Shown here in pieces: positions 7,322-63,700 of a DNA stretch of 64,000 nucleotides. Position numbers and translations under genes: made by a program. This DNA comes from Anodontia alba (taxonomy: Eukaryota; Mollusca; Bivalvia; Lucinida; Lucinidae): the NCBI GenBank assembly GCA_964016985.1, contig OZ024828.1, positions 86,382,308 through 86,446,307 of the forward strand. Direction: 5' to 3'. The first letter of the stretch is position 1. Every line of letters starts with the position of its first letter. The notes under the pieces were generated by a model. That model made no database searches. It saw only the letters and a program-made list of their open reading frames with translations, and had not been told where the DNA came from.

Positions 7322-7532
7322 TTAACCCTAGTCCTGTTGGACCCAGATATGCCCTTTTGCAAACAGTGTAGATCCAGATCAGTTGGCTTCTTCAGAAGTC
7401 AACTGATCTGGATCTGCACTGTTCATCATTAATTATGTGAAATTGTATCAACAACCTGGATCAAGTAATCTGATTGGCTGAAAATTAGAAGCGGGTGTGG
7501 CATCTTAATCTATTCAGCATGATAAGGATTAA
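7322..7532 (-). mobile_element. TTAA-flanked MITE, family P1
   Basis: Bounded by TTAA (7322-7325 and 7529-7532) with inverted ends CCCTAGTCCTG / CATGATAAGGAT. Inside is the palindromic core GATCCAGATCAGTTGGCTTC followed by its inverse, flanked by AAACAGTG words, and a conserved arm CTGATTGGCTGAAAATTAGA. TTAA targets with CCC-starting ends are the mark of piggyBac-type elements, so I infer a piggyBac-mobilised MITE. Confidence 0.75.
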
Positions 7533-7616
7533 GGTATCCAAAATATCTAGGCTAAAATCCCACCTATCTGCAGGAAAAAAGCAACATTCTAATAGTATGG
7601 TAAACATCCTAAAATT

Positions 7617-7862
7617 TTAACCCTTAAAGCACCAATCACAACTATTGTCGTCTGCTTTGTCATCTGCTTGTGATTTTAAAAGTCATTTTTGCAAACAGTG
7701 TGGACCCAGATCAGACTGCTCCTTTAGGAGCAGTCTGATCTGGGTCCACACTGTTTGCCTGTATGCAAAAAATAGGTTTGAAAAGTCTGCAAGAATATTC
7801 AGCAGACAACATAAACAGATGACATTTTCAGATGCAGTTTTTCTTGGCGCTTTAAGGGTTAA
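7617..7862 (+). mobile_element. TTAA-flanked MITE, family P2
   Basis: TTAA at both ends; inverted termini CCCTTAAAGCACCAA and TTGGCGCTTTAAGGG. Core palindrome GTGTGGACCCAGATCAGACT / inverse, with a GCAAACAGTG flank also found in families P1, P3 and TA1. Open frames read through it on both strands only because of the palindrome. Confidence 0.8.
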
Positions 7863-8094
7863 GCACTCTATTTCCATACTTTTTTGGTTCTTAAAATACT
7901 TAGTGGAATTGCAAATAATGTAGACTCTGATCAGACTGCTCCTGAACTGCACTGTTTGTATGTACTATTTTGTCAGAAACTTTGGTGTATGAAATTTTAG
8001 GACAGTTACCATAGTCCTTGCTTTAACAGTTAGTTGTCCCTAGTCTCATTTAGAAACCTGGTATTTCTGGATGGGGAACTGCTTAACCAGACCG

Positions 8095-8247
8095 AACTTC
8101 AAACTGTTGCAGTTCTTCTTTGTTTGAGTGTCTGTGGTTTCATATATGGCCTTTGTTTGGTTATTATTTGTTCCTCATCTCTCCTTCCTTCAGTGCCTCA
8201 GGTGGGCTTTGCTTCGTGATTGTGGCATTTCCTGGGTAACTACACAT
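8095..8247 (+). repeat. Dispersed repeat shared with 54321-54490
   Basis: GTGGTTTCATATRTR, CCTCRTCTCTYCTTC, GTGCCTCAG and TTCGTGATTGTGGCATTTCC occur in the same order at 54321-54490. No transposon ends recognised. In both places the repeat lies next to a TA-flanked MITE (8269-8490 and 54108-54310), but on opposite sides of it. Confidence 0.6.
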
Positions 8248-8268
8248 ATTTTTATATCCCAATTTCAG

Positions 8269-8490
8269 TACACTACAACTTCCTTATAACAAGACTCATT
8301 ATAACATGGTTTTGGATATAACACAGTTCAAAGATGGATCCCAAAAATGAAGAGATTATATTGAAAAATGATCATTAATGGTTTTTTCAATATAATCTAT
8401 ACATTTTTGTTTGGCTATAACATGGTTGATTAACTAACACGGTTCATGCTATGGACCCCAACACTAGTGTTATAAAAAGGTTGTGGTGTA
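8269..8490. mobile_element. TA-flanked palindromic MITE, Tc1/mariner-like
   Basis: TA at 8269-8270 and 8489-8490. The inverted ends are CACTACAACTTCCTTATAAC and the inverse of GTTATAAAAAGGTTGTGGTG. The centre is a palindrome of GATTATATTGAAAAATGAT type. TA duplication and near-full palindromy suggest Tc1/mariner-type mobilisation (inference). A sister copy is at 54108-54310. Confidence 0.75.
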
Positions 8491-8534
8491 ATTTTGTCTA
8501 ATTACATATTTAAGACACTCTATGACAGTCCTAT

Positions 8535-8600
8535 AAGGTTAACCACCTAGAGGACTAAGCCTGCCCAGTAACAGTGTTGACTGGGCCGTAAATTTCCACT
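8535..8600 (+). mobile_element. SINE1 3' fragment
   Basis: GGTTAACC, TAGAGGACTAAGCCTGCCCA, GTTGACTGGGCCGTAAA match the tail end of SINE1 in plus orientation. An internal deletion joins GCCCAGTAA to GTGTTGACTGG. A CA-rich tract follows at 8712-8757. Confidence 0.65.
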
Positions 8601-8711
8601 CAACTATATGCCAGTGATTGCAGTAAAATGAGTATATTACAACCATTCCTATTATTTCACATATCAAGTCTCTGTATTTTGACTGCATAAATTTATTTTC
8701 TAATAGCAGCA

Positions 8712-8757
8712 CCCCACCCCCCCACACACTCACACACACACAGACACAGACACACCC
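8712..8757. repeat. C-run and CA-rich simple repeat
   Basis: A C-rich run leads into CACACACTCACACACACACA and CAGACACAGACACACC. Simple-sequence tract; the minus-strand frame at 8539-8739 reads through it and is not a gene. Confidence 0.85.
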
Positions 8758-8763
8758 TCAAAA

Positions 8764-8939
8764 TTGCTCAGATACATGGCCCCTGATTTGCCCAGAGACT
8801 GTTAAAGATTAACATGTGATGCCTACAGGAGGGTAATAGTTACAATTTATCAGTTCTCCAGATGCATCGGTCCACATAAGGCACTTTTTTTCTACAAAAA
8901 AGTATTGATATTTTCCTTATACATGTATCTCCATGAAAA
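8764..8939. repeat. Duplicated segment, sister 1, left part
   Basis: From TTGCTCAGATACATGGCCCC to CTCCATGAAAA this matches 15812-15982 almost base for base. The match is broken at 8939/8940 by the large insertion and resumes at 15067. A small indel (ACATGT) distinguishes the two near 8922. Confidence 0.85.
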
Positions 8940-9260
8940 TGAAGTTTTTTAAAAGTAAAACATATTTTAACGAGTAATACTTAACCTATAGATAATGTGC
9001 TATTCTATTCTGTTTTCACACCTTCCACAGAAAAAACGACCTTTCAGTCGTTAATTAAAGTCTTAAACCAGAAGGTCCCTTAGGCAGTTACCTGTGTGAC
9101 GTAACTCTTCCCGCTCAATTGACCACGTGTCAGTTTCTTTTATGTGTAAAACAATAGACACAATTAGGAGAGATAAGCGAGGGTGGGCGGAGGGAGATAA
9201 TTGATTATCTATAGGTTAAGTATTACTCGTTAAAATATGTTTTACTTTTAAAAAACTTCA
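8940..9260. mobile_element. Short TIR derivative of the large element (element A)
   Basis: About 60-bp inverted ends: TGAAGTTTTTTAAAAGTAAA ... ACTTAACCTATAGATAAT on the left, its inverse on the right. The inner left part (GTGCTATTCTATTCTG through CACGTGTCAGTTTCTTTT) repeats, in inverse orientation, the subterminal 150 bp of the large element's right end. The outermost 45 bp of the TIR differ from element B, while the inner TTAACCTATAGATAATGTGC is shared. It is best read as an internally deleted relative sitting at the left edge of element B. Confidence 0.7.
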
Positions 9261-12200
9261 TTTTAACTTCATAATACATTAACCTATAGATAATGTGCTA
9301 GAATTTGCAGAATAGGAGGGAGGTGCTCTCCTAATTCTAACACCAATAATATCTCACCACTTCTGGTTAAGACTCAGGAAACTCAAAGGAATCAGATACA
9401 TTCTAATTCTATATTTAATAGAAAGAATGGTCTAGATTCACAAAATAGCTTTAAGGTGTTATGATCTAACAACCTTATATATATTAGTAGACTCTAGAGG
9501 AAGCCAGTTCTTAAGTCTCAGAGACCTAACATCGGCCCCCCCTTCTTTTTTTCTTTTTGGGAAACAACAATTGGCTTCAAAAAGAAAAGGGAGTCATTGA
9601 GACATAACATAAATATTCCATCGCAAAGTAAGCTAGGAATATAGAAATATTTTGAAAACAAAATTTGTAAAACAAAAAGCCAAGACCATACACTGTAAGT
9701 AGTCTATGTAGGATCTTGAATAAATAAGGAAAAGTCTACTCGGTGGAGTTTCCTATAGATAACTGACATATGTAGATATTTTGGATAAAATTCTAGATAT
9801 GTGAAGCTATGTAATTGTAATAGTCTAAGCTATTAGAATTATAAACTAATTAAATTCTGTTAATTGGAGCGACAGGACAGTTTCCGATGAACAGACACAG
9901 ACTTAAAATAACCATAATGTGTAATTATTTCCCTTGATCAAATTAAAGAAGGGGAGATAATAAAAGTAGATGGAGTTAACTTAACTATAACTAAGTTATC
10001 CATCAGAAGAAAAAAGGTATAGACAAACATAATGGTTAAAACTATTGCTAGACTAATTGTATAACGAATTTTTAGTCAAGCAATAAAATAATACAGAGTT
10101 TGCATATAACTGCTGGGAAGAAAAAACAACTTAAACCATTGATAATTAGTTTTGTCATAGACATATAAAAGCGTTTGATGTCCTGACAAAAAAATAAAGA
10201 ATAAACTGTCAACATCATAACTAAAGAGTTTGACAGACAATAAAAGAGATAAGAATAAGGTTGATCGCAGCAAACTGTATGACGGTCATAGTTTGGCTAA
10301 ATCTTACCGTATTGATAAGATTAAGCAATAATAAATAAGCTGGATAGAATCTTTCTATACCAGAAGATTGCCATGAAAAGTACTCCTGAGTAAATAATCA
10401 TGGAAATCAAGAAATGTTAAAAATCCACTTTGATACGAATCAAAATGTTCATAAAAAGAGAAGGACTCAGAGAAAAAGTAATAGTGTGATAATCTCTGAA
10501 GAAAGATTATACAATAATACTGATTATTAATCTCAAAAAACACTTAATTTAAAAGTTAAGAGATAGTATTACTATTCTATACGCATATTTAAGAATAGTA
10601 AGAAAAATATTAATACTAAATAAAAATTATACTACTGAACAAAATTCCCGCTATAAATCATAGGTTAAGCGTAACTATTATTTAAGCAAGGAATTATTAA
10701 ACATATAACTCTCTATAAAATTACTGCCCAGAAATTTTATAGATAAACATTCAATCAAATTTTTAGAATTGAATATTAATAGAATAAAATCTATGTCTGC
10801 ATAATTGGTAATTCCTGAAATATCAAATTACGTACTCGCAAATGAGTTCAGGAAGAAAATACATATATATACTCTCGAGATCTATGTGTAAACCATAGAG
10901 AGTAATAATATTATTACCGCGATCCCTGACGGAAGGGTAAAAAAATGTATATGAAAGAGATAATAATTAATTTAACGTCATATAGGTTTAAGATAAAATT
11001 TGTTTAATCTTTAACCAATATGCAGCAACAGTGACTCGATATTCTGTATTCGTACGTAGAAAAGGAGTACTTAGTCATTAGAATTTTGAATGATTGAAAT
11101 AGAGATAATGGGATCTAAAAGGATGTATCTCCATGAACTGAATCGAAGGATAATATCCATTCTAAAAAACTAGGGCTTGTTTTAGACTTAGTTTAACAAG
11201 CGTAGAATTGAATTATTTTCAAGTATTCATGAAGTCGTTATGCTCTGAATACTGAGAAAAAAGTTAAAATATTGTTTAGGAAATAAAAAAGTGACTGTTC
11301 CACAATGTTAGCTAGATTTAAACCTGGAACGTAGCGAGAAGGTCAATCTAATTTAAAAGTAAGATGAGAAAGATAAATAATGAAGATAGATATATAAATA
11401 TCGGAATAATATATTATCTCCAACAATTATCAAATAATCTGAATGTTTAAAGGCATAAATACTACTCGAAAGTTTATTTACCGAATGTATAATCGGAGAA
11501 AACTTTCAGTATGTTCAAAAACGTATCACAAAAGTAAGATCTGACCAGGAACGTAGGTGCAGCACTTACTAAGTTGTGAAGTTAATATAAACATATTTTA
11601 TATTATAAATTGAAGCAGTGCATTTCAAAAACATCGACATCTTGAAATGACTTATTGTGTGGAAAAATAAATAAATATCCAGTTTCGGAAAGATATTTAT
11701 CTATATATATAGACCATTTTTGATGCGGACTGGAAATCAAGATATTAATCTTTGCATTATTCGCAAACTGAACTTGAACTCTTAGCGAGAATTACTATGA
11801 TCCCTTTAACGAATGTAAACATAAAGGAGGGGTAAAGAGATAATTAAGAGTGTCTTAATTCTTTACCGGCTCGTAATTAAGGATGTTTTCCCTTTTGTCT
11901 AAGCCTAGACTATAGATTGATTAATATAATTATAATAATATCTGCTATTATGAGGTAAACTCTCGTTAATTAACCTCTAAGCATATATCAAAAATATATA
12001 TCAACATAATCTAGAGCTTCGGTAAGTTTAGAGGAAGGAAATGATTGACTTTGGCAGTTTCTGAATAGTTACAAAGTCAATAAAACAAAATATCAAAAGG
12101 AAAGTATTGTATATAAAATCTAATTTAGGCAATAATAATCTGTCACGTACTGAATAATTAATGCCTTTACTAAATATGTATCCATTGTCAATACCAAAGT

Positions 12201-13256
12201 GCAAGAAAATTTTGATTGACATGGACTCTAGTTATAAATAAAATATTAGAGGTATAGAGCTAGTCGAAGCAAAACTATTCCTCAATAAGATAAAGTAGAC
12301 CTATAATATACGAGGATTAATTGGGTCTAGAATTATAATCATAATAAAATTATTATTCCAATATGAAGAATCTTCAGCGTAATAGATTCTTACTGAGGCA
12401 AAAATATCTGGTATATTGCTATCGTAGTCTTAAATGATCCAGAAGAAAAAATAAAACAGGCAAAGTAAAGAACGTATCGAATTATATCTATGCCTAAATA
12501 TAAGATTTATTTCTTATTTATTATTTTATAGCAGAGTTTAGACAGAGCACGACTGACCTAGACTCTTATATAATCAATCAAAAGATAGTATAAAATAGAA
12601 TAATAGCTTATCGGATCAACTATTTTCCATGTAGAAAAGGCAAAAGGAAAATATGTACCTCAACTAGAATTTTAAATCGTAGTAATCTAGAGAGGTAGTG
12701 AATAAATAAATAAACTGTTAATATATTTATCTGGTTGGTGTAAATTTCCGATACCTTAAGAATGAAAAATTAATAGAAAGTAGAAAAGATCGATTGCTAC
12801 TTTCTTGTCAATTTACTCCTTAGATTACATGTTGATTACATATCGGAGCATGTAGAAGAAAAACAGGGGAGGAAAGAAGAAAAATTTTTATATTTCGTGT
12901 ATATTTTTCTTCTTATAAATAACGATAGTTTTATAGTTCACCTTTGCCCTAGAGCCGAATAAGGTGAATATGTAAGAAGTTAATCTCTTTGTAGCGAATA
13001 AAACGAGATATAATTATAGCTGGAAGTATCTTCTACACTTAGTGAATGAATTGCGAATTTGATCGTAACCGATAATTCTTAATTCATTTTCAATAATAAA
13101 TATATATATAGAATTTAAGTCAAGTTCAAAAGTAACTGGACAGAATTCAACAATATAAATGGCTACTAGGTATTAGAACCCATCGCTGTCATTCAATAAC
13201 CTATAATCCAAGACTATACATGTCTATAGTGGTTATATATGAATATATGTTGAGCC

Positions 13257-14100: not shown

Positions 14101-14139
14101 TCAGAAACTAAGTCTTTCCAGAAAATAATTAAATTATTG

Positions 14140-17032: not shown

Positions 17033-17248
17033 TTAACTCTTTGCATGCTGGGTAATTTTGCATACTTTTTTGTGGTGTGTGGATTTTCTAAACAAAAATT
17101 TAACTTTCTCGAAAATATCTTTCAGGGATACCATCAGCGTGTCAAACAGTTTGGATTTAGATCAGGCCAGATGTTTTGTCAGGCCAGATCTGGGGCCAAA
17201 CTGTTTGCAAAGGTTATCAGCAGACGACAAAAGTGGGGAAAGAGTTAA
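17033..17248. mobile_element. TTAA-flanked MITE with CTCTTTGCATGC end
   Basis: TTAA at 17033-17036 and 17245-17248, with CTCTTTGCATGCTGGG at the left and GTGGGGAAAGAG at the right. Core carries an inverted pair around CAAACAGTTTGGATTTAGAT and GATCTGGGGCCAAACTGTTT. Plus-strand frames 17045-17248 and 17058-17378 lie in it and are not supported as genes. Confidence 0.65.
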
Positions 17249-17697: not shown

Positions 17698-17937
17698 CCT
17701 TATAGCACCAATCACAACTGCAGCAGATGACATTTTAAACATATTCAAAATATTTTTTTTTCTACTTTATTTTTTTTTACAGGATATAAGTCTTCAAATT
17801 TCATGTGAATTGTCAGCCAAGAAACAATTCACATGAAATGTAAAGACTTATTTTCTATGAAAATATATATATATATATATAAAAATAATAATAAAATGTC
17901 ATGTGCAACAAATTTTGTTTGGTGCTTTAAGAGTTAA
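17698..17937. mobile_element. P2-ended MITE with CATGTGAATTGTC core
   Basis: Ends resemble P2 (TAGCACCAATCACAACTGCA; GGTGCTTTAAGAGTTAA) with TTAA at the right end. The core is CATGTGAATTGTC / GACAATTCACATG, not the GACCCAGATCAG core of 7617-7862. A TA-dinucleotide run lies at about 17865-17881. Confidence 0.65.
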
Positions 17938-18714: not shown

Positions 18715-18927
18715 TTAACCCTTGTCATGCTGAATAAATTAAGATGCCACGCCCACTTCTAATTTCCAGCCAATTAGATTATTTGATCCAGGTTTTTGAT
18801 AGAAATTCACATATTTAATGACAAACTGTGCAGATCCAGATCAGTTGGCTTCTTTAGAAGCCAACTGATCTGGATCTACACTGTTTGCTGAGACAGGGCA
18901 TGTCGTGTTCAGCAAGAGAAGGGTTAA
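18715..18927 (+). mobile_element. TTAA-flanked MITE, family P1
   Basis: TTAA at 18715-18718 and 18924-18927; ends CCCTTGTCATGCTGAATAAA and AGCAAGAGAAGGG. Contains CCAATTAGATTATTTGATCC and the core palindrome GATCCAGATCAGTTGGCTTC. Well-preserved copy. Confidence 0.8.
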
Positions 18928-25452: not shown

Positions 25453-25809
25453 TACTGTATTCGACCTAATTACCGCACAGTGCATTTAGGTTTTTCAAAA
25501 TTACTTGAAATTTGTAGTTAAATATCCACCTTATAAGGGCACGCTTTAAAGAAAGATCAACAGAGGATTTCATGAGGGGCATATTTTATGATGCTCATGT
25601 GATATTTGTTTCCGATTTTCTTTATAAAACATACGTTGTTGGAACTCATTTGAAATGTCTTGACTTGTCGAGGCAGTTCCAGTGAGAAGCCACAGCATAA
25701 TGCTTTTACAAATAAGTGAATAAAAGTACAGGGATTGTCATCTGAAGACTACAATATTATTGACTGTGCACTTATAGGAGTATGTACTGTAATTAGGTCG
25801 AATATGGTA
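25453..25809. mobile_element. TIR MITE, family R
   Basis: Ends TACTGTATTCGACCTAATTA and TAATTAGGTCGAATATGGTA are mutual inverses. Subterminal ACCGCACAGTGCA / TGCACTTATAGG also recur in 31726-32007 and 33584-33946. The centre carries a decayed form of the family-H palindrome (CATTTGAAATGTCTTGACTT / GAGGCAGTTCCAGTGAG). Confidence 0.75.
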
Positions 25810-27375: not shown

Positions 27376-27668
27376 GTTTGTTTGTGTTGAGGTTTTACGG
27401 CCCAGTCAATCAAGTGTGGTCAGTTTACCTAACCACACTTTTACTGGGCAGGCTTAGTCCTTTAAGCGGTTAACCAGTATTGTGCACATTCTTTCGCCAG
27501 AAACTGGCAACTGCCCTTCTTGAATCAGCGGAAAGAAGAGAATGACCATAGAAAATATTTCATGATCAAATCTCCAGGAAAGAAGTCGCTGACCTGGCGG
27601 GGGTCGAACCCGCAACCTCCTGATCACCAGTCGGACGCACATCCAACTGAGCCACCAAGGCCGGCCCA
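27376..27668 (-). mobile_element. SINE1, near full length
   Basis: On the minus strand: tRNA-like head GGCCGGCCTTGGTGGCTCAG (A-box region) and GCGGGTTCGACCCCC (B box), then body AGGAAAGAA, GAAATATTTTCTATGGTCAT, TTCAAGAAGGGCAGTTGCCA, and tail TTACGG-type GGCCGTAAAACCTCAACAC. No target duplication could be confirmed. Confidence 0.85.
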
Positions 27669-30097: not shown

Positions 30098-30290
30098 GCT
30101 TAACACTCTGTGTAAAATTTTCAGCAGACAACATTTTGAAATATGTTTATTATTTTTCCCAGGAAACAGGATTTGACATTGCACGCAAATTGTCTCCAAT
30201 GGAGACAATTTGCATAAAATGTCAAATCCTGTTTTCTGAGAAAAATAAAAAATATTAATTTGTCATCTGCTGAATTAGAGAAGTGCAAAC
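30098..30290. mobile_element. Palindromic MITE, family P4
   Basis: TTAACACTCTGTGTAAAATT at the left, TTTCAGCAGACAACATTTTG, then the core ATTTGACATTGCACGCAAAT and inverse around TTGTCTCCAATGG, then TTTGTCATCTGCTGAATTAG. Confidence 0.65.
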
Positions 30291-30904: not shown

Positions 30905-31560
30905 TTTAAGGGTCAGGTAGAGAAAACTGTCAAAAATAAATTTCTAAAGTAATCAGACTAAGACTTGGGCTGACCTAAATAATGACTGTCGGTGAACAGT
31001 GAAATGTAGACCAAGGTCACAGAATTATTCAATAGTGCAGATGTTCCCCTTCTGAAAGAAGTGTATACCATATTTGATTCACTTTTTTAGAGATGAAAAC
31101 AAGAATTCTGCTGTCCCTGCTATAGCCATTATCAAAAATAAACTTTTGGAGTCATCAGACTAAGACTAGGGCTGACCTACATAATAACAAAGTGGACAGT
31201 GAAATGTAGGCCAAGGTCACAGAATTATTCCATAGTAGAGGAGTGCCCCTTAGTAAAGAAGAGTACCGTATTTACCATATGTATTCGGACAGACAGGCCT
31301 GAGCAAACAGTTTAGACCCAGATGAGACGCCGCAAAATGCGGCGTCTCATCTGGGTCTACACTGTTTGCCACTCATCCAGCAGTTTTTAGACACAACATC
31401 GGGTAGTGAATTGTACTGGTTCAAATGTTAGAACATATATGGTAAGGAGTTGAGGTGTCCGAATACTTAGGGTAAATACGGTATACTGCATTTGATTCAC
31501 TTTTTTAGAAATGAAAACAAGAATTCTGCTGTAAGAGTCTTTGCATCTATCCTGTCTTTG
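30905..31560. repeat. Two tandem ~200-bp units, second one interrupted by a MITE
   Basis: Units share CAAAAATAAAYTTYT, TAATCAGACTAAGACT, GGGCTGACCTA and CAAGGTCACAGAATTATTC, then TTTGATTCACTTTTTTAGA and GAAAACAAGAATTCTGCTGT. Unit 2 is split at 31264-31483 by a TA1 MITE. Truncated tandem-core element is likely. Confidence 0.65.
31264..31483. mobile_element. TA-flanked palindromic MITE, family TA1, with empty-site control
   Basis: Ends CCGTATTTACC and GGTAAATACGG with TA on both sides. Core GTTTAGACCCAGATGAGACG then CCGCAAAATGCGG and the inverse. The neighbouring unit reads AGAAGTGTATACCATATTTG; removing the MITE and one TA from unit 2 gives AGAAGAGTATACTGCATTTG, which directly supports TA duplication. 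Confidence 0.85.
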
Positions 31561-31609: not shown

Positions 31610-32065
31610 TAACCATTACAACTCTCTGGGCCAATTTAGCAGATGACAAATTGATGACATTTTTCCAAGAAAACAGAATTTGCCATTGCATGAAGTGTCA
31701 AATCCTATTTTCTGGAAAAAAAAAATACCGTATTCGACCTAATTACCGCACTGTGCGCTAAAGTTTTTCAAAATTTCTGGGGACACTCAGTGGTGGTAAA
31801 ATATGTATCTACCTGCTAAGGATACACTATAAAAAAGATCAGAAAAGGACTAATTTGATGCAAGTCGATGCAATTCAAATGAGTACCCACAACATATGCC
31901 TTCATAAAGAAGTAAAGAAAAAGTACACTGGCTATAATCTGAACTCTACGGAATTTCTTGACTGTGCGCTTATAGGGGTATGTGCGGTAATTAGACCGAA
32001 TACAGTAAGAAAAATATTTCAATGTCATCTACTGAAAATTTTACCTAAAGTGCTAAGCATTAAGA
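31610..32065. mobile_element. Family P4 MITE split by a family R insertion
   Basis: Left part: CTCTGGGCCAATTTAGCAGA, TGCATGAAGTGTCAAATCCT. Right part from 32008: AGAAAAATATTTCAATGTCA, CTACTGAAAATTTTACC and AAAGTGCTAAGCATTAA. The pieces join as in the intact copy 63840-64000 and its relatives. Confidence 0.7.
31726..32007. mobile_element. TIR MITE, family R, inserted in P4
   Basis: TACCGTATTCGACCTAATTA at the left, TAATTAGACCGAATACAGTA at the right, with CCGCACTGTGCG and CTGTGCGCTTATAGG subterminal. Centre contains GCAATTCAAATGAGTACCCA and CAACATATG, one arm of the family-H core. Confidence 0.8.
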
Positions 32066-33583: not shown

Positions 33584-33946
33584 TACCGTATTCGACCTAA
33601 TTACCGCACTGTGCACTTAAATTTTTCAAAAGCACTGGGGAAACTTGTGGTAAAATATCCACCTAATAAGGGCACACTTGAAAGAAAGAGCAACAGAGGA
33701 CTTCATGAGGAGCGTATTTAATGATGCTTATGCAATGTTATTTTCTGTTTTCTTTATAGAATCATATGTTGTGGATACTCGTTTGAATTGCCTCAACTTG
33801 TCGAGGCAATTCAAATGAGTACCCACAACATATGTCTTTTTCATAAAGAAGTAGATAAAAGTACACTGGGTGTAATCTTTTAGATTACTAAATTGTTTGA
33901 CTGTGCGCTTATAGGAGCATGTGCGGTAATTGGGTCGAATACGGTA
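33584..33946. mobile_element. TIR MITE, family R, with intact H-type core
   Basis: Ends TACCGTATTCGACCTAATTA and AATTGGGTCGAATACGGTA. The centre holds CATATGTTGTGGATACTCG, TTTGAATTGCCTC, AACTTGTCGAGG and the inverse, i.e. the same palindrome that fills family H, inside completely different termini. Confidence 0.8.
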
Positions 33947-44154: not shown

Positions 44155-44250
44155 AATTTAAACAGTGTAGACCCTGATCAGATGCCACATTCTGCAGCAT
44201 CTGATCTGGGTCTGCACTGTTTGTCAATTATCCTTCTGGGGGTTTCCCGC
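44155..44250. mobile_element. P3-type core fragment
   Basis: AGTGTAGACCCTGATCAGAT, GCCACATTCTGCAGCATC, TGATCTGGGTCTGCACTGTT, then TTATCCTTCTGGGGGTTTCC. Ends missing. Confidence 0.55.
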
Positions 44251-44517: not shown

Positions 44518-44761
44518 TTAACCCTTAAACTGCCAATCACAACAACTGTCATCTACTTATCATCTGCTTGTGATTTTAAAAGTCCTTTTTGCAACCAGTG
44601 TGGACCCAGATCAGATTGCTCCTTTATGAGCAGTCTGATCTGGGTCCACATTGTTTGCCTGTATGCAAAAATAGGTTTGAAAAGTTTGCAAGAGTATTCA
44701 ACAGACAACATAAACAGACGACATTTTCAGATGCAGGTTTTCTTGGCATTTTAAGAGTTAA
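44518..44761 (+). mobile_element. TTAA-flanked MITE, family P2
   Basis: TTAA at 44518-44521 and 44758-44761; ends CCCTTAAACTGCCAATCACA and TTGGCATTTTAAGAG. Core GTGTGGACCCAGATCAGATT and inverse. Closely matches 7617-7862 through its whole length. Confidence 0.8.
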
Positions 44762-46475: not shown

Positions 46476-46591
46476 CTAATCTTAAACAGCTACAGAGAAT
46501 AGTTTATAGTTCCAAGTACAGTAATAAGGCAGACTCTGTAGAAGTCTGATCAAGGGCAACACCATTTGCCAATAAAGGTCATATTAAACTA

Positions 46592-46806
46592 CCATATTTA
46601 CCGTAAGTTTTCAGACACCTCAACTCATTACAATACTTGTTCTAAAATTTGGACAAGTACAATATATTACCCGATGCTGTGTCTAAAAATTGCTGGATGA
46701 GTGGCAAACAGTGTCGACCCTGATGAGACGCTGCATCTGTGGCCTCTAATCTGAGTCTACACTGTTTGCTCAGGCCTGCCTGTCTGAATACAAACGGTTA
46801 TTATGG
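46592..46806. mobile_element. TA-flanked MITE, family TA1
   Basis: TACCATATTTACCGTAAG at the left, CAAACGGTTATTATGGTA at the right (decayed). Core GTGTCGACCCTGATGAGACG / TAATCTGAGTCTACACTG, then CTCAGGCCTGCCTGTCTGAA. Confidence 0.65.
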
Positions 46807-46826
46807 TAGTCATCAACTTGCGAACT

Positions 46827-48060: not shown

Positions 48061-48142
48061 AATCTCTAATTCTATAAGTAAAGGTTAATAACTTCGTAAC
48101 TTCCGTCTAAAATGAGGTTGCTGACATTATTGATCCATGAAT

Positions 48143-48346
48143 TAACTCTTTAAGATTCAAGCAAAATCTGTAGCAGATGACATTCTAAATTTTTTTCATT
48201 GAAAATAAGTCTTGACATTTCATGTGAATCATCAAGCAGATAATTCACAATTCACATGAAATGTCAATACACTTACTTTCTATGAAAATAAAAACTTAAA
48301 ATGTTTTCTGCTGCTGCTGAGATTGGCACTTTAAGAAAGTGTTAAA
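48143..48346. mobile_element. P2-ended MITE with CATGTGAAT core
   Basis: TTAACTCTTTAAGATTCAAG at the left, GATTGGCACTTTAAG at the right. Core CTTGACATTTCATGTGAATC and an inverse ATTCACATGAAATGTCAATA, with GCAGATGACATTC and TTTTCTGCTGCTGC flanks. Compare 17698-17937 and 54900-55112. Confidence 0.6.
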
Positions 48347-53884: not shown

Positions 53885-54098
53885 TTAACCCTAGTCCTGC
53901 TGAACTCGGATATGTCCTGCCTTTGCAAACAGTGTAGATCCAGATCAGCTGGCTTCTGAAGAAGCCAACTGATCTGGATATGCACTGTTTGCAATTAAGT
54001 ATGTGAATTTATATCAACAATCTGGATCAAGTAATCTGACTGGCTGAAAATTTGAAATGGGTGTGGCATCTTAATTTATTCAGCATGGCAAGGGTTAA
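53885..54098 (-). mobile_element. TTAA-flanked MITE, family P1
   Basis: TTAA at 53885-53888 and 54095-54098; ends CCCTAGTCCTGCTGAACTCG and CAGCATGGCAAGGG. Core GATCCAGATCAGCTGGCTTC and inverse. Confidence 0.8.
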
Positions 54099-54498: not shown

Positions 54499-54725
54499 TT
54501 AACCCATTAAAGACTGAATAAACTCTCCCACATTATATATTGGAAGAGTCCATTTTCAATTTTAGGTATGTCCAGCTATATTATATAGATATTCCTACAG
54601 AAAAATGGTTGAACTATTTGCAAACAGTGGAGATCCTGATTAGATTCCCATTCTGTGGCGTATGAGCTGGGTCTGCACTGTTTGCCAGTTACCTGTTTAG
54701 GGGTCTCCAGTCTTCAATGAGTTAA
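54499..54725 (-). mobile_element. TTAA-flanked MITE, family P3
   Basis: TTAA at 54499-54502 and 54722-54725; CCCATTAAAGACTGAATAAA at the left and AGTCTTCAATGAG at the right. TATATTGGAAGAGTCCATTT and TTTGCAAACAGTGGAGATCC as in other P3 copies. Confidence 0.75.
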
Positions 54726-54899: not shown

Positions 54900-55112
54900 T
54901 TAACACTCAAACTGCTGCGAAAATTTGTAGAAGAAAACATTCTAAAATTGATTTTGCTATTTTTCAGATAAAACAATACCTGACCTTTCATGTGAATTGT
55001 CTACCAGCAGATAATTCTCATGAAATGTCTATGAAAATCCAAAAAACTAAAAAAAAGAAAAAAATCAAAATATCATCTGCTGCAGCTGTGATTATAGCCC
55101 TTTAAAGATTAA
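54900..55112. mobile_element. P2-ended MITE with CATGTGAATTGTC core
   Basis: TTAA at 54900-54903 and 55109-55112; CACTCAAACTGCTGCG and ATTATAGCCCTTTAAAGA at the ends. Core CTTTCATGTGAATTGTC / AATTCTCATGAAATG. It ends about 50 bp from the donor of the upstream CaMKI exon. Confidence 0.65.
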
Positions 55113-56490: not shown

Positions 56491-56496
56491 ACTAGT

Positions 56497-56955: not shown

Positions 56956-57500
56956 CATGGGATATTTTAAATGGCTCCGTCAATCCATCCATCTGTCACA
57001 CTATCTCCACCTAAACCACTGGGCGGATTTAACCAAGCTTGCTACAGGACTTCCCCAAATGGTAAGGGTGTGCGAGAGCAACAGAGTTTTTCCTTCTATC
57101 CATCCATCTGTCCATCAAGCTATCTCCTCCTAAACCACTGGGTTAACCCTTGTCCTGCTGAATAAATTAAGATGCCAGGCCTACTTCTAATTTTAAGCCA
57201 ATCAGGTTACTTGATCCAGATTGTTGCAATAAATTTGCATACTTGATGGCAAACAGTGCAGATCCAGATCAGTTGGCTTCTTCAGAAGCCAACTGATCTG
57301 GATCTACACTGTTTGAAAAAAGCAGGACAAGGGTTAAATTTAAATAAACTTGCTATATGACTTTCTCACCTGGTTAGGGTGTGTGAGAGCAACATTATTT
57401 TTCCATCTGTCCATCCATCCATCATGCTATCAGCAACATTAGCACCAAGCATGAAGATTTGTGATGGTATGCCATCGACTGCCCAATCTAATTTTTTCTT
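56956..57500. repeat. Fragment of the 125-bp array (see 23.6 kb), split by a MITE
   Basis: CCATCTGTCACACTATCTCC, GCTTGCTACAGGACTTCCCC, GGTAAGGGTGTGCGAGAGCA; resumes after 57337 with AATAAACTTGCTATATGACT and GTGTGTGAGAGCAACATTAT, ending at GTGATGGTATGCCATCGACT as at 24410. Confidence 0.7.
57143..57337 (+). mobile_element. TTAA-flanked MITE, family P1, in array unit
   Basis: TTAA at 57143-57146 and 57334-57337; CCCTTGTCCTGCTGAATAAA at the left, AGCAGGACAAGGG at the right (near-perfect inverse). Core GATCCAGATCAGTTGGCTTC. It interrupts AACCACTGGG...AATTTAAATAAACTTGC, a motif uninterrupted in other units. Confidence 0.85.
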
Positions 57501-57955
57501 ATTTTCTGGGATAAAAAAAATATCATGAATTTGTCATCAGCTAAACTTGCCCAGAAAGTGGTAAAGATTAAGTAAATATAAAACTTTTCTTATATTTGTT
57601 CTGATAAAAATGTGTTCATTCAAATCCTCTCATCTGGTAACATACGAAATGATTCATATTGAAAAGCTACATCCCATTTTCTGTGACAATAAATCAGTGG
57701 CTGGGTTGCAGTGAAGTTTCAGGTGGAGTTGTGAAAATTTTCACCTAAAGATTGCTCATGTGGCAGACTACTAGGATAACCGATGCAGACATTTATAGGA
57801 CCAGCCTGAAATATTACATGATGATATCAGGAGATATCTCATAACAAAAGGTTGGTGCTCATAAACTAGAAAAAACAAATCTGACATTCAATAATATCAG
57901 TGGAAACAAACAAACCAATACAATATACACAGTCAAGACCACGACTCCCACTATT
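57501..57955 (-). other. Unexplained sequence upstream of the first visible CaMKI exon
   Basis: Searched for kinase N-lobe motifs on the minus strand without success. CTTATTTTCTGGGATAAAAA, TTTGTCATCAGCTAAACTTG and CCCAGAAAGTGGTAAAGATT at 57495-57570 are the right arm of a P4 element. The rest is unrecognised. Confidence 0.4.
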
Positions 57956-58154
57956 AAACTTTTCCACTCTCTGGGCCAATTCAGCAGATGACAAATTGAT
58001 AACATTGTTTATTTTTTCCAGAAAACAGGATTAGACATTTCTTGCAAAAAGCTAATTTGCATGAAATGTCTAAACCTTTTTCCAGGGAAAACTAAAAAAA
58101 CATATTTCAAAATGTCATCTGCTAAAAGTTTTACCCAGAGTGCTAAGTGTTAAG
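57956..58154. mobile_element. Palindromic MITE, family P4
   Basis: CTCTCTGGGCCAATTCAGCA, TTCCAGAAAACAGGATTAGA, TAATTTGCATGAAATGTCTA, AATGTCATCTGCTAAAAGTT and CAGAGTGCTAAGTGTTAA. Confidence 0.7.
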
Positions 58155-58375
58155 AGCACCATCTGCCAGTCCAAAATGGTTTCTTTCTTCTAATTCAATA
58201 TTCAATATTAAGACCATTCCACTAAGACCACTTTTAGGCAGTCCCAAAGGATTTGATAGCGGAATTTTAGTGTAAAACACAAACTATAACACTTTTTTTT
58301 TATGGAGAAAATATTGCTTGACATTTCAAGTGAATCATCTGCCTAGTAGACATTATACAGAATGCCGTTGTTTCT

Positions 58376-58655
58376 TGGGCACAGTCAATACTGTTAAGAT
58401 CATGTCCAGCTGGTCAGTTTACCTAACCACATTTTTCCTAGGCAGGCTTAGTCTTCTAAGCAATTAACCAGTACTTGTGCACATTCTTTAGCCAGGAACT
58501 GACAACTGTCCTTCTTGAATCAGCAGAAGGGGGATAATGACTGCAGAAAATATTTGATGATCAGTCTTCACAAAAAAAAAAATGTTGCCAGACCCGGTGG
58601 GGGTCGAAACTGCAACCTCCTGATCACCATTGGAAGTGCCTTGGCTGACATATCA
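58376..58655 (-). mobile_element. SINE1, diverged
   Basis: GGGCACAGTCAATACTGTTA, GGTCAGTTTACCTAACCACA, AGGCAGGCTTAGTCTTCTAA, GACCCGGTGGGGGTCGAAAC, then GATCACCATTGGAAGTGCCT. The head is altered and partly lost at CCTTGGCTGACATATCAGC. Confidence 0.75.
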
Positions 58656-58899
58656 GCTGGCATATCTATGTAGCTTGATGAAGGTCTTCACTGATATTTT
58701 ACAGAAAAATTGGATATCGCAGAATATATCATTGGACTACAAAGGCTTAAATGATACTGTGTGTCATTGCTGGCTGAAATGTATCTTTACTATTTACATA
58801 TGTACTAATAACACCTTTTCCCATGGAATTACTATGGTAATAGCAACTTTCATTTCATGTCATAATCCATGATGCTACTTCTAGCAGATGATCCTACAT

Positions 58900-59045
58900 A
58901 GCTCTAGATAAGAGGGGTATTCAGATAAATACTGTACTTATTTCTCCATGAAAATATGTTTTGGGTACTCATTAGAAGTGCCTCAGCGAGGTACTTCTAA
59001 TGAGTACCCACAATATATGTTTTTTAGAATATATTTAGCTGATAC
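58900..59045. mobile_element. Family H hairpin
   Basis: ATAGCTCTAGATAAGAGGGG, TTATTTCTCCATGAAAATAT, GGGTACTCATTAGAAGTGCC and its inverse, CACAATATATGTTTTTTAGA. Confidence 0.65.
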
Positions 59046-59097
59046 CCAACTTCCCTGAACTACTCCTAGTAAACTGCTTTCAAAACCAATAACAGAG

Positions 59098-59316
59098 TAC
59101 CATATTTACCAATTATATTCGGACAGACAGACCTGAGCAAACAGTGTAGACCCAGATGAGATGCTGCAGAATGCAGCATCTCATCAGGGTCTACACTATT
59201 TGCCACTCATCCAGCAATTTTTAGACACAACATCAGGTAGTAAATGTACTTGTTCAAATTTAAGAACAAGTATGGTACAGAGTTGAGGTGTCCAAATACT
59301 AAAGGTAAATACGGTA
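59098..59316. mobile_element. TA-flanked MITE, family TA1
   Basis: TACCATATTTACC at the left, GGTAAATACGGTA at the right. Core GTGTAGACCCAGATGAGATG, CTGCAGAATGCAG and inverse; CCACTCATCCAGCAATTTTT and AACATCAGGTAGTAAATGTA as in 31264-31483. Confidence 0.8.
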
Positions 59317-59535
59317 AAGAACATGCCACAATGACTTTTCAAATATTTTTGTGCATGTGTTCAATTGTTCATTTACAGAAAGAGAATATTTCCTCATTTG
59401 TTTTGTTCATGTAGGCCTAGCAATATCACCTGATAAATACCCTATTTACCTTAAATATTTCTTTACCTCAACTACTCACAGCATATGTTTTCATGAAGAG
59501 ATAAGAAAAATATTGATCTGGATATCCACAACTTA

Positions 59536-59837
59536 TTTGTTCGTTTGTGTTGAGGTTTTACGGCCCAATTAACCCAATGGGGTCATGTTGAGCATGGTCA
59601 GTTAACCTTACCACACATTTACTCTAAGCCATTAACCAGTATTGTGCAAATTCAGAAACTGACAACTGCCCTTCTTGAATCAACGGAAGGCTGTGACTGA
59701 CCACAGAAATTATTTTATGATGAGTCATTATGACTGAAATGGATCTTAACTGTTTACATATGTACTGAGTTGCTGAGCCGGGGTGGGTTGAACCATCACC
59801 AGTCAGACGCACATCCAATGAGCCATTGAGGCCGGCT
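59536..59837 (-). mobile_element. SINE1 with 9-bp target duplication
   Basis: Flanked by CACAACTTA at 59527-59535 and 59838-59846. Tail GTTTGTGTTGAGGTTTTACG; head GGGTGGGTTGAACC and GCCATTGAGGCCGGC. A segment near 59740 (GACTGAAATGGATCTTAACT, TTTACATATGTACTGAG) is not SINE and resembles 58770-58810, a patch of foreign sequence. Confidence 0.8.
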
Positions 59838-59974
59838 CACAACTTAATTTGAACTGTCATAATAACCCCAAGTATTGGGACAGACAGGCCTGGGCAAATA
59901 GTGTACACTCGACTAGACCCAGCAGGCACGACTTTTATTCAATGTCACATGAATGTCATGATGTTGCATCACCA

Positions 59975-60188
59975 TTAACCCTTGTCCTGCTGAATAAATT
60001 AAGACGTTATACTCACTTCAAATTTTCAGCCAATCAGATTGCTTGATCCAAATTGTTGCTATTAATTCACATACTTTATGGCAAACAGTGCAGATCCAGA
60101 TCAGCTGGCTTCTTCAGAAGCTAACTGATCTGGATCTACACTGTTTGCAAAGACCGGGTATATCTGGGTTCAGCAGGACAAAGGTTAA
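59975..60188 (+). mobile_element. TTAA-flanked MITE, family P1
   Basis: TTAA at 59975-59978 and 60185-60188; CCCTTGTCCTGCTGAATAAA and CAGCAGGACAAAGG. Core GATCCAGATCAGCTGGCTTC and inverse. Confidence 0.85.
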
Positions 60189-60359
60189 TGCGACATTGTA
60201 TAAATGCTGTGACACTGCATTGATGTTAATCTCACACTGTATAAACGCCATGTGCCTGCTGGAGATTAGATGCCGCATAAATATTCAACAGGTGGTAAAA
60301 TGCTTGTTGAACAGTGGAATTTACATTCATTCAAATATATATTGGGTAAATATGGTAAC

Positions 60360-60597
60360 CTTTACCACTTACTGGGTTAATTCAGTAGTCAACAAATTGA
60401 TATTTTTCTAATTTTTCCCAGAAAATAGGCTTTGGCTTTTCATGCAAATAGTCTCCTTATTCCCAAAAAATCAGTTTTGGCATTTCTTAGGAGACAATTT
60501 GCACAAAAAGCCAAAGCCTACTTTCAGGGAAAAATAAGAAAAATATTTCAAAATGTTGTCTGCTGATATTTCTACCAAGTATGCTAAGTGTTAAACA
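60360..60597. mobile_element. Palindromic MITE, family P4, with internal duplication
   Basis: CTTTACCACTTACTGGGTTA, TTTTCCCAGAAAATAGGCTT, TGGCTTTTCATGCAAATAGT; an extra TTCCCAAAAAATCAGTTTTG block precedes AGGAGACAATTTGCACAAAA and AAAGCCAAAGCCTACTTTC. Ends GTTGTCTGCTGATATTTC and GTATGCTAAGTGTTAA. Confidence 0.65.
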
Positions 60598-60946
60598 AAC
60601 TGGCAGCAGTATGGCCATCTCTAGTGTGTTTCCCTCAACTATTGCACAGATATCTCCCAAATAAAGTATTTGCTGCAAACAAGAAGTTAATTTAATACTT
60701 GAACAAAATTCCAGCATCATAAATGGCACCATTGTTGAATATACAGACTCATTACTTCAACTACACTATATTCTCATCAATCCCCTCGTCTCTATACAAT
60801 CACAACAAGAGTCTGTCGTAATTTTATAACCAGCATTATTGTTGTCTGGACCAGAAATCCACTCCTGGGAATCACATCTAAATCCCATCTGATTTCAGAC
60901 AAACACTTGTACCATGAAATCTTTCTCTAATACTGTATTTATGACT
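60598..60946 (-). other. Unexplained upstream sequence
   Basis: An 81-codon minus-strand frame (60487-60732) crosses the P4 border and is not supported. I find no kinase N-lobe motif. Looks like unique intron or upstream sequence. Confidence 0.35.
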
Positions 60947-61462
60947 AACCCTGGTCTTGCTGAACCTGGATACACCCTGTCTTTGCAAACAGTGTAGATC
61001 CAGATCAGTTGGCATCTTCAGAATTTTGATTGTGGTGCGGTTTAACAAGACGTCAACCCTTGTGGGTCATTTTGTGTCGTCTCCCAGAGAAAGGGAGAAA
61101 AGATAAAAGAGATACATGTAGTAGAGGAGGTGAAAGAGAGGGACAGGGAAGAAAGAGGAACAGGAATGAAAGGGAAAAAACAGAAGAAATAAAAACGTTT
61201 CCCCTCTACCCCTACCTGCTACAAGGTTAGCAAGCCTTGCCCAATTGTAAGCCAATATCAGTTGGATGCCCCAGTGACGTAAGATACACAACACCTTCGC
61301 CACATCCGACCACCCCCAGGCTTCTTCAGAAGCCAACTGATCTGGATCTGCACTGTTTGTCATTTGTATGTGAATTTGTATCAACAACCTAGATCAAGTA
61401 ATATGATTGGCTGAACATCAGAAGTGGGTGTTGCATCTTAATTTACTCAGCATGGCAAGTGT
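60947..61462 (-). mobile_element. P1 MITE interrupted by SINE2
   Basis: Left part CTAACCCTGGTCTTGCTGAA, GTGTAGATCCAGATCAGTTG, GCATCTTCAGAA; right part from 61323 TCTTCAGAAGCCAACTGATC, GGATCTGCACTGTTTG, CAGCATGGCAAGTG. The SINE2 sits in the palindrome centre. Confidence 0.75.
61024..61322. mobile_element. SINE2, inside a palindromic MITE
   Basis: Flanked by TCTTCAGAA at 61015-61023 and 61323-61331. GGTTTAACAAGACGTCAACC, GGGTCATTTTGTGTCGTCTC, GAAAGAGAGGGACAGGGAAG, AGCCTTGCCCAATTGTAAGC, AATATCAGTTGGATGCCCC. Same layout as 22289-22561. Minus-strand 106-codon frame is spurious. Confidence 0.75.
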
Positions 61463-61464
61463 AA

Positions 61465-61725
61465 GTATTTGGACAGACAGGACTTAGCAAACTGCGGATC
61501 CAGCTCAAAATGTTACAGAATGCAGCATCTGACATAGCTCCATTTAAACGGGGTATCCACAAACATTTTCATGATTTCTCCTTGAGAACATATGTTGTAG
61601 GTACTCATAAGAAGTGCTGGTGGAGCTATGGTCAGGTAGTAAATGGACGTTCAAATTTCAGGACAAGTATGGCCAGGGACTGAGTTGTCTAAATGGGTCA
61701 GGTAAATATGCGAAAGAAGTCTTCA
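61465..61725. repeat. Mixed TA1 and H fragments
   Basis: TTTGGACAGACAGGACTTAG, ATGCAGCATCTGACATAGCT (TA1-like), then ATTTCTCCTTGAGAACATAT, TGTAGGTACTCATAAGAAGT (H-like), then GGTCAGGTAGTAAATGG, AATTTCAGGACAAGTATGG, TGAGTTGTCTAAATGGGTCA (TA1-like again). It reads as an H arm lodged in a TA1 copy. Confidence 0.5.
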
Positions 61726-61877
61726 GTAATTAGTGAATGTAAATGCCTGTTCTAATCAGCATGCTCATCCACACAGACTGGTCAGACAAATACGGCACAA
61801 CCTCTCTACAAGACCAACTCGTTTGTTTATTTGTTTGAGTTTTTGCTTAATATCACATCAACCTTTGTAGTTCAAAT

Positions 61878-62600
61878 TTAACCCTTGCAATGCTGAATAA
61901 ATTAAAGGGGAATGCAACCCTAATACAAAATATTTTCACAGTGAAGAACTTAACAAAATGTAAAAATTGATACCAGTTTGATCAAAATCGGTCAAGAAAT
62001 AACAAAATTATTATTGTTTGAAGGATTTTAAATGGCCAACATTGGCGCTGCCATTTTGAATACTTAATGAGATTTCAAGAACTTTTAAACATTAAAATTT
62101 TGGATTATTTTTATAATCAAAGCATTTGCTTTTAGAATATAAGTTGCTTACCACTTTAGGAAAACATGTTCAGAAACATTAAGACAAAATATCCATCTGT
62201 GTGCTGTTTATTTTAATTATGCATATTTAATTTGGGCTGTGTGATGTCACAAAGTCTAAAAATGGTGGCTTCCATGACAGTTGGTGTTCAAATATTTAAA
62301 CTCCAATAACTTTCTAATTTGCTGGTTGATTTTGTTCAAACTTGTATCAATATTTTTGGCTTGGAAGTTCTATCAAAATAGACATACTTTCTTTCTACAT
62401 TGCTTTTCTCTTTAAGATGCCATGCCTACTTCTAACTGTCAGCCAGTCAGATTGCTTGATCCAGGCTGTTGATACAAACTCACATACTGAACGAAAAACA
62501 GAAGCCAACTGATCTTCATCTGCACTGTTTGTCATTAATTATGATTGTGAATTTGTATCAACAACCTGGATCAAGGAATCTGACTGGCTGACAATTAGTA
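61878..62600 (+). mobile_element. P1 MITE interrupted by another TTAA element
   Basis: TTAACCCTTGCAATGCTGAA to ATAAATTAA, then the insert 61902-62415, then GATGCCATGCCTACTTCTAA, CAGTCAGATTGCTTGATCCA. The core is shortened (GAAGCCAACTGATCTTCATC only). Right end decayed near GTAGCTATGGCATCTTTACC. Confidence 0.7.
61902..62415. mobile_element. TTAA-flanked element inserted in P1
   Basis: TTAA at 61902-61905 and 62412-62415. Ends AGGGGAATGCAACCCTAATA and ACATTGCTTTTCTCT, only loosely inverse (AGRGRAAxGCAA). About 510 bp, no frame of note. Inside, GCGCTGCCATTTTGAATAC and GTCTAAAAATGGTGGCTTCC form a loose inverted pair. Other P1 copies read AATAAATTAAGATGCC straight through. Confidence 0.7.
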
Positions 62601-62616
62601 GTAGCTATGGCATCTT

Positions 62617-62975
62617 TACCCTTGTCATGCTGAATAAATTAAGATGCCATGCCCATTTCTAATTTTCAGCCAATCAGATTACTTTATCCAAGTTGTTCAT
62701 ACAAATTCAAATACTCAATGACAAACAGTGCAGATCCAGATCAGTTAGGTTCTTCAGAAGTCAACAAGAGCTGACCCTGGTCCTGCTGAACCCAGATATG
62801 TTCTGCCTTTGCAAAAAGGGCAGATCAAGATCAGTTCTGAAGAAGCCAACTGACCTGGATCTGCACTGTTTTAAAGTATGCAAATTTGTATCAACAATCT
62901 GGATCAAGGAATCTGACTGACTGACAATTAGAAGTGGGCGTGGCATCTTAATTTATTCAGCATAGCAAGGGCAAT
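62617..62975. mobile_element. Two joined P1 MITE pieces
   Basis: ACCCTTGTCATGCTGAATAA, GATCCAGATCAGTTAGGTTC, TTCAGAAGTCAAC; then CTGACCCTGGTCCTGCTGAA, AGAAGCCAACTGACCTGGAT, TCTGACTGACTGACAATTAG, CAGCATAGCAAGGGCAATGG. Two partial copies in opposite orientation, meeting near 62765. Confidence 0.6.
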
Positions 62976-63334
62976 GGTGTCCCAATATTTAGAATAATTA
63001 TGTTACAACAGACTCTATTTGACTTAGTTTTGGTTCTCATAGCTCAGCCTTGTTCTGTTTTGCTCACCCATCTTCTGACAATTTCCGTAATTACCCAAAT
63101 CATTTTGTCCTTACTGTACTTATTCTAATATTAAAACAAGCTACACTGACCAACTGGTGATGTATCTAAAAAGTACTGACTGGATGCCAAACAGTGCAGA
63201 CCTGATCAAACTGCTCCTAAATCTGTCTGTCTGAATATTTAGGGCAAAAAGTATGATAGTATATAGACTATAACAAACTTCATTCTGCCCTCATGTATTG
63301 AACACCAGAACTGTTTCTATTCTGCTGATAGAAT
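62976..63334 (-). other. Upstream sequence with a core fragment
   Basis: AACAGTGCAGACCTGATCAA and ACTGCTCCTAAATCTGTCTG near 63190 are a MITE core scrap. The rest has no recognisable feature. Confidence 0.35.
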
Positions 63335-63700
63335 GATGACGATTTTTTGTTTCATGTCCCTTTCAACATCATTTAACCCATTGTAGTCAGGAGACCCGTA
63401 AATGGGTAATTGGCAAACAGTGCAGACCCAGATCAGATGCTGCAGAACACGGCATCTGATCAGGGTCTCCACTGTTTGCAAATAGTTTAGCCATTTTTCT
63501 CTAGGAATATGTAAATCCCATAGCCAGGCGTACCTAAAATTGAAATTGAACTCTTCCAATACAAGTGTGGGAGAATTTATTCAGTACACAATGGGTTAAG
63601 TCATAGCAAGATTTGGTGATACAGTGACGCATCCTACAGTCATGAGCTGAACTTCTTGTGTTACATGGTCAGTAGCGCCAACTGCTCGGATATGCAGATG
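63335..63700 (-). mobile_element. SINE3 copy split by a P3 MITE
   Basis: TTTTTGTTTCATGTCCCTTT, CAACATCATTTAA, then MITE, then GTCATAGCAAGATTTGGTGA, CGCATCCTACAGTCATGAGC. Joined, it parallels 56497-56610 (GTTTCATGTCTCTTTAAACA, CACCATACAGTCACAAGTTG). Confidence 0.55.
63373..63599 (+). mobile_element. TTAA-flanked MITE, family P3, best copy
   Basis: TTAA at 63373-63376 and 63596-63599; CCCATTGTAGTCAGGAGACC and CAGTACACAATGGG. Core GTGCAGACCCAGATCAGATG / CATCTGATCAGGGTCTCCAC, GCAAACAGTG at both sides, then TTTAGCCATTTTTCTCTAGG. Confidence 0.85.

Follow-up and report, generated by a model that had tools for sequence, protein, structure and literature searches.

Miniature inverted-repeat transposable elements (MITEs) with different ends around a conserved interior have been described in corals, and against these we set a DNA hairpin, core 1, that recurs in several MITE families of the lucinid bivalve Anodontia alba, as seen in a 64,000-nucleotide stretch (assembly GCA_964016985.1, contig OZ024828.1, positions 86,382,308 to 86,446,307 of the forward strand; hereafter the window, numbered from its first letter). 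The Acropora elements, CMITEs, combine different terminal inverted repeats (TIRs) and a conserved 75-bp internal region with TTAA targets, tandem arrays and piggyBac transposases (Wang et al. 2010, PMC2872659; this and all other published sources are represented here by excerpts). The initial annotation of the window had supposed that modular MITEs were undescribed, which the coral report contradicts. Our elements resemble CMITEs in their differing TIRs around a conserved internal region, in TTAA targets and in the presence of genomic piggyBac transposases, and one coral element likewise has another family's type of core. They differ in number (~1,600 copies in A. millepora versus ~4 × 10^5 hairpins here), in length (~100 bp versus 195–246 bp in ten core-1 elements) and in target, since the coral families are TTAA only whereas family TA1 here ends in TA. 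Tandem arrays occur in the corals, and the one array seen here is of a 63-bp core rather than of whole elements, all of these likenesses and differences being drawn from descriptions. Relative to PMC2872659, and within the open-licence papers covered, what is new is the spread over TTAA and TA targets, the variable self-complementary tip, the 39–40-bp placement in five families, and the scale. Spellings of the core 20 letters long, sought in paper texts, gave 0 matches.

Short interspersed elements (SINEs) of the CORE, V and Deu groups possess a conserved central domain with differing heads and tails and are RNA-mediated. Core 1 is like these domains in its conserved centre and varied ends, and differs in that the elements here are DNA transposons. 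Closer in taxonomy, the haemoglobin genes of Lucina pectinata contain a 210-bp MITE-like repeat with 30-bp imperfect TIRs and a 77-bp palindromic segment (PMC4732748), which resembles core-1 MITEs by description (TIRs, palindrome), in a paper that prints no sequence for the repeat and is not concerned with core sharing. Bivalve pearl-type and tandem-repeat MITEs are built of modular, satellite-like repeats (PMC5139131); they share with ours a modular make-up, the core here also occurring as a 63-bp tandem array by a TA1-like flank, but their modules as excerpted are satellite-like and include no single conserved hairpin common to unrelated ends. The Xenopus T2-MITEs and Xmix are abundant TTAA MITEs with a tandemly amplified internal segment (PMC6004289), similar to ours in these respects, yet they are presumed to be Kolobok and are grouped by a common terminal motif, not a common core.

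A hairpin core shared by families with different ends

Core 1 is a 66–68-bp DNA hairpin with outer arms GCAAACAGTGNAGAYCCAGATSAG and a tip that is variable but self-complementary, and it is carried by at least seven MITE families: P1, P2, P3, F5 and F7 with TTAA targets, and TA1 and, provisionally, F6 with TA targets. That P1, P2, P3 and TA1 share one core despite unrelated ends had been proposed from the window alone and held up, with 22 exact window matches to the core 13-mer AGAYCCAGATSAG (23 with up to one mismatch) and with TTAA or TA read at both ends; F5, F6, F7 and others add to the families first named. The core-1 features of the window are as follows.

57143..57337, minus strand: P1 MITE, TTAA ends read, hairpin 57249–57316
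59975..60188, minus strand: P1 MITE, hairpin 60081–60148
53885..54098, plus strand: P1 MITE, hairpin 53925–53992
18715..18927, minus strand: P1 MITE, hairpin 18821–18888
7359..7426, plus strand: P1 hairpin, element with a TTAACCC end at 7322
7617..7862, plus strand: P2 MITE, TTAA ends, core-1 hairpin 7691–7758 within a G/core-2 type chassis
44591..44658, plus strand: P2 hairpin
63373..63599, plus strand: P3 MITE, TTAA ends, hairpin 63413–63479
54499..54725, minus strand: P3 MITE, hairpin 54620–54685
44158..44224, minus strand: mixed hairpin, short flank P3-like and long flank F7-like
31264..31483, plus strand: TA1 MITE, TA ends, hairpin 31303–31369
59098..59316, plus strand: TA1 MITE, hairpin 59137–59203
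46590..46808, minus strand: TA1 MITE, hairpin 46704–46769
7911..7965, minus strand: F6 hairpin remnant
17142..17208, minus strand: F8 hairpin, 40-bp TTAA short flank bearing the motif GTCGTCTGCTGA

Across the genome searched (1.863 Gb in 317 contigs, the window lying in contig 8), the 13-mer matched 290,467 times (144,718 and 145,749 by strand) versus 1,794 times (923 and 871) for the same pattern read backwards, a control whose rate predicts ~0.06 exact matches per 64 kb. Scaling up from 18 10-kb stretches that we placed at round coordinates, in which 43 left-arm and 37 right-arm matches were found at up to four substitutions, gives roughly 4 × 10^5 hairpins in the genome. Folded as DNA, five window hairpins reached −14.9 to −41.6 kcal/mol, with 0 of 200 shuffles as good for each.

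For comparisons among copies, 75 paired hairpins became 72 once near-copies were removed, with 76 single arms kept out of the trees; loci L001–L030, some of them local duplicates, come from the first 0.51 Mb of contig 1, where the core pattern was used to pick them. In the arm-identity, nearest-neighbour and flank-assignment counts, three of the 72 rows were misoriented; in the trees and end check they stood the right way round. Over the 51 of 72 hairpins used for arm identity, left outer arms were 0.83 identical between families and 0.87 within, so the cores align across terminal families and not only inside them, whereas inner arms were 0.46 identical between families against 0.81 for one copy's own two inner arms. 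The tip varies by family along with its complement, so palindromy would be restored or kept when families are founded. Tip ACGCCGCAGAACGCGGCGT is common to the P3 and TA1 lists, with variants at CpG sites that resemble CpG decay, and ACTGCTCC-type tips are common to P2, F6 and a minority of TA1.

Such conservation raises the tentative possibility, compatible with the explanation that we prefer below, that the hairpin is a functional part (a transposition enhancer, protein site or small-RNA source) kept or re-acquired by selection. The likeness of outer left arms across families, the tips that change with their complements, and the preserved polarity and offset described below are all as such a part would have them, and the coral authors propose a similar role in the excerpted text (PMC2872659). 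Single copies, by contrast, decay one-sidedly (60 one-sided inner-arm departures versus 19 two-sided, 13 of these complementary); when the window was scanned against Rfam with gathering thresholds, no family fell on the hairpin, the one weak match being a tRNA at 27590–27661; and MITEs with other cores, 2 and 3, are amplified in this genome too.

Element anatomy and target sites

The seven family consensuses share one layout of short flank, hairpin and long flank, with short/long lengths in bp of 40/106 (P1), 40/121 (P3), 39/106 (F5), 40/123 (F7), 39/114 (TA1), 74/104 (P2) and 54/99 (F6), such that the hairpin lies 39–40 bp from one end in P1, P3, F5, F7 and TA1, as it does in most copies, with outliers. 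Among 45 copies of the TTAA families, TTAA was present in 35 of the 42 short and 31 of the 39 long ends found, a count favoured by a searched motif that includes TTAA, with up to four substitutions allowed. With motifs that likewise include TA, TA was present in 16/16 short and 8/13 long ends found among 18 TA1 copies, and in 4/4 short and 4/4 long ends among five F6 copies (two duplicates, one without clear ends). Seven TA1 copies with nearly identical hairpins lie at C1:18745456–18784376, four of them spaced by ~4.2 kb (18753873, 18758071, 18762266, 18766462), perhaps because a longer unit that includes a TA1 is repeated in tandem.

The terminal motif is CCCT in P1, P2 and F5 and CCCA in P3 and F7; the excerpts of PMC2872659 give CC[C/T]T as the piggyBac terminal hallmark and also list one piggyBac end with CCCATT. 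A piggyBac transposase source is present in the genome, with 118 PF13843 stretches (best E-value 6e-88), many in open frames of 549–609 aa. Nine piggyBac DDE domains lie in open frames of equal length (549 aa) with near-equal scores (e.g., C4:9275097, C4:9282578, C18:42133669), which suggests that these copies are recent. For a hard clam assembly, the table in PMC8905726 lists piggyBac at 0.00 and 0.01%.

Homology beyond the hairpin

When the long flanks of P1, P3, F5, F7, TA1 and F6 were anchored at the hairpin and compared jointly against cyclic shifts, bases 1–35 and 36–70 were alike (z 6.1 and 4.5), and bases 61–95 showed no likeness (z 0.3). A hairpin plus ~70 bp of flank common to six families, with the hairpin 39–40 bp from the end in five, points to largely one ancient interior with replaced ends, and part of the core sharing is, judged from these alignments, common descent of that unit.

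Such homology, together with the constant offset, is also what one would expect if no exchange had occurred and a single MITE lineage had kept its hairpin while its ends, tracking changing transposases, diverged past recognition. This possible but less probable account is helped further by P3 and F7, alike in both short (z 6.2) and long (z 5.2) flanks, by the resemblance of P3 and P1 short flanks to the end of a contig, L051, described below (z 4.3 and 3.4), and by the single clades of P1 and P2 hairpins in the full tree. Changing the target site from TTAA to TA, though, goes beyond divergence, and the P2 hairpin lacks flank homology and sits among another family's chassis motifs.

The opposite edge of the hairpin is abrupt, with between-family identity of 0.77–0.95 at 11 of 12 bases inside the short-side edge (0.50 at one) and 0.14–0.44 at 11 of 12 outside (0.94 at one). 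So sharp an edge would suit a hairpin that was itself a mobile mini-element, repeatedly inserted into existing MITEs, as would its occurrence as a 63-bp tandem array and the acquisition by P2 of the hairpin only. We nevertheless consider this improbable: by eye, no target duplication is visible at the hairpin edges of the consensuses, offset and orientation are similar in five families, homology runs past the long-side edge, and the searches described next gave no clean unoccupied element. An HMM (hidden Markov model) search of 335 kb gave 121 left-flank hits, 31 unpaired, and 0 of the 90 flank pairs were less than 30 bp apart. Among 45 TA1 hits with flanks 0–30 bp apart, no clean hairpin-less TA1 was seen by eye, all 45 keeping a piece of hairpin (the shortest ~10 bp), and the earlier suggestion that the TA1 core arose by insertion of one palindrome into another followed by loss is accordingly not favoured.

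Other cores and the make-up of P2

Modularity is not confined to core 1, because cores 2 and 3 also occur in more than one chassis. Core 2 (TTGACATTTCATGYRAATTGTC) was found in family G and within P2-type ends, and core 3 is common to families H and R.

48142..48345, plus strand: core 2 (CATGTGAATTGTC type) between P2-type ends, clear case, end CTTAAAGTGCCAATC
54900..55112, plus strand: P2-like ends with core 2, weaker case
17800..17838, plus strand: core 2 inside a decayed element at 17698
30100..30286, plus strand: core 2 in a family G element (TTAA), right boundary approximate
33584..33946, plus strand: R MITE, TA ends, H-type core 33764–33840
58954..59025, plus strand: family H core (core 3)

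The initial annotation had placed P2-type ends around a different core at three sites; two of these stand as listed, one clear and one weaker, and at 17698 the left end is P2-like without TTAA, with no matching right end seen in the portion read. Its further claim that R carries the H core is borne out (79% over 77 bp), and R is matched by two further window stretches, 25453–25809 and, in two pieces, 31726–32009.

P2 itself has motifs like AGCAGAYGACA twice per side (within two mismatches), its end CTTAAAGYGCCAATC is also on the core-2 element at 48142–48345, and its long flank is unlike those of the other families, all pairwise flank tests being null. P2 therefore seems, on its motifs and ends, to be a hybrid, with a core-1 hairpin in the chassis of a core-2 family.

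Conflict between hairpin trees and target types

Trees were built from 55 of the 72 hairpins, leaving out those of unassigned family, those with lengths outside 64–69 and one duplicate. P1 (18 rows) and P2 (4 rows) each formed one clade, and TA1 needed six changes. Forcing the 19 TA-target rows into one clade cost 50.4 log units (approximately unbiased test, p-AU 5.8e-5), and because the arms mirror each other we reran the test on hairpin halves, where a single TA clade gave p 0.0025 (left) and 0.027 (right); TA1 alone (16 rows) as one clade gave p 0.0012. By nearest neighbours and in the tree, the two tip types of TA1 group with different TTAA families. Both results speak against an origin without exchange, and the hairpin trees support past exchange between cores and ends.

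Mosaics and joints

Exchange as a continuing process is another matter. The initial annotation had offered template switching at hairpins, and one chimera fused at a hairpin base, plus one mixed P3/F7 pair among 72 hairpins (44158..44224), are the kind of product that free, ongoing reshuffling of ends and cores would leave. We regard such reshuffling as highly improbable, since exact patterns found 2,791 P3 and 2,760 TA1 elements with matched flanks genome-wide versus 0 P3-short/TA1-long and 0 TA1-short/P3-long mosaics (0 and 0 against 5,551, for this one family pair). Flanks of one family bordered 62 of the 72 hairpins, 9 others having a flank unassigned.

The chimera comes from three paralogous loci, L011, L015 and L018, which are 93–97% alike in their long aligned parts and hold two adjacent TA1-like elements. 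In L015, 194 bp of L018 are missing and one element's hairpin base abuts the other's inverted long flank, a change that we read as a deletion because L011 and L018 agree. The hairpin base can thus serve as a breakpoint, which does not imply that the product is mobile. Separately, at L009 and L010, near 1490, an F6 element is bordered on both sides by TA1 (hairpin-side bases; short flank) and so lies inside a TA1 hairpin region; these two loci resemble duplicates.

Further occurrences of the hairpin

In L048 (2054–3178) the hairpin unit is repeated in tandem 17.5 times with a 63-bp period and 86% matches, beside an apparently TA1-like long flank, and reads as a core turned satellite-like. A divergent relative outside the named families, with GGCCTTCACTGT instead of GGTCTACACTGT in its arms, occurs at L046:8735 and L037:7670. 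At 60985–61359 of the window, a P1 hairpin is interrupted at its tip by ~295 bp, bordered on either side by the 13-bp near-repeat GGC[A/T]TCTTCAGAA, as after insertion with target duplication, and at 8936–9264 a perfect 61-bp inverted repeat flanks a 207-bp spacer, with the direct repeat TAACCTATAGATAATGTGCTA close by.

Core searches found 0 matches in viral contigs and two stretches in GTDB genomes, L050 and L051. We set L050 aside, as it looks to us like coding sequence that matches by chance (our reading, with no gene call). L051, at a contig end of a Spirochaeta metagenome-assembled genome (MAG; LUC14_002_19_P3), has a TTAACCCATTG end, 41 bp and then a core-1 hairpin. A Spirochaeta-like MAG P3 was obtained from a 2014 gill sample of Phacoides pectinatus (PMC6461927, as excerpted). 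Because MAG P3 stems from a clam gill sample, record and paper being tied by labels only, the L051 contig end probably derives from clam DNA in the gill metagenome. Phacoides pectinatus is presumably the species called Lucina pectinata above.

A probable ancient interior with successive ends

The explanation that we prefer, with somewhat better than even confidence, is an ancient interior carried by successive different ends, with rare old exchange and at least one hairpin-only transfer, that into P2. The non-autonomous interior would comprise the 67-bp hairpin and ~70 bp of long-side sequence, carried by a series of terminal repeats served by either a TTAA transposase, presumably of piggyBac type, or a TA transposase, presumably of Tc1/mariner type. 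New combinations of end and core would be rare, arising most likely where the hairpin base is the site of a deletion or repair joint that fuses neighbouring or nested MITEs, and the few chimeras movable by a current transposase may then have been amplified and founded families; in P2, the hairpin alone apparently moved, a core-2 family providing the chassis. We infer the transposases involved, the order of events and the role of joints as family founders. Exchange between ends and cores, as initially proposed, is thereby retained as a past process, probably old and rare, on tree conflict and the P2 hybrid, with part of the sharing reassigned to common descent of the hairpin and its ~70-bp flank.

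Several points weigh against this explanation. Without its two ACTGCTCC-tipped rows a TA1 clade is barely rejected (p 0.041), so a few rows supply much of the conflict signal and the support from the trees is weaker at that value; P1 is no longer one clade in the left-half tree; apart from P1 and TA1, each family contributes 1–7 rows, with bootstraps unsettled and many forks open; and the tree test was run after the nearest-neighbour results were known. The consensuses of P2, F5, F6 and F7 derive from 4–5 copies each, the TA target of F6 is provisional because its copies are few and two are duplicates, and P2 was excluded from the six-family flank test because its pairwise tests gave nothing. 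The L015 joint is a local rearrangement within a duplicated region, and the sharing among P1, F5, P3 and F7 could be explained by gradual divergence without exchange.

We tentatively raise one further idea, which we hold as no better than possible, that DNA transposons have in this hairpin a transferable core domain, equivalent to the core domains of SINEs, which passes between MITEs of two transposase superfamilies and whose part in mobilisation depends on placement ~40 bp from one end. A MITE family is recognised by its ends, and if interiors pass between the ends of different transposases, an end-based classification would split one lineage into many and hide the means by which non-autonomous elements survive the loss of their transposases. 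A single genome with ~4 × 10^5 hairpins in several families allows counting and assay to address what the coral authors asked, namely whether an internal region aids transposition.

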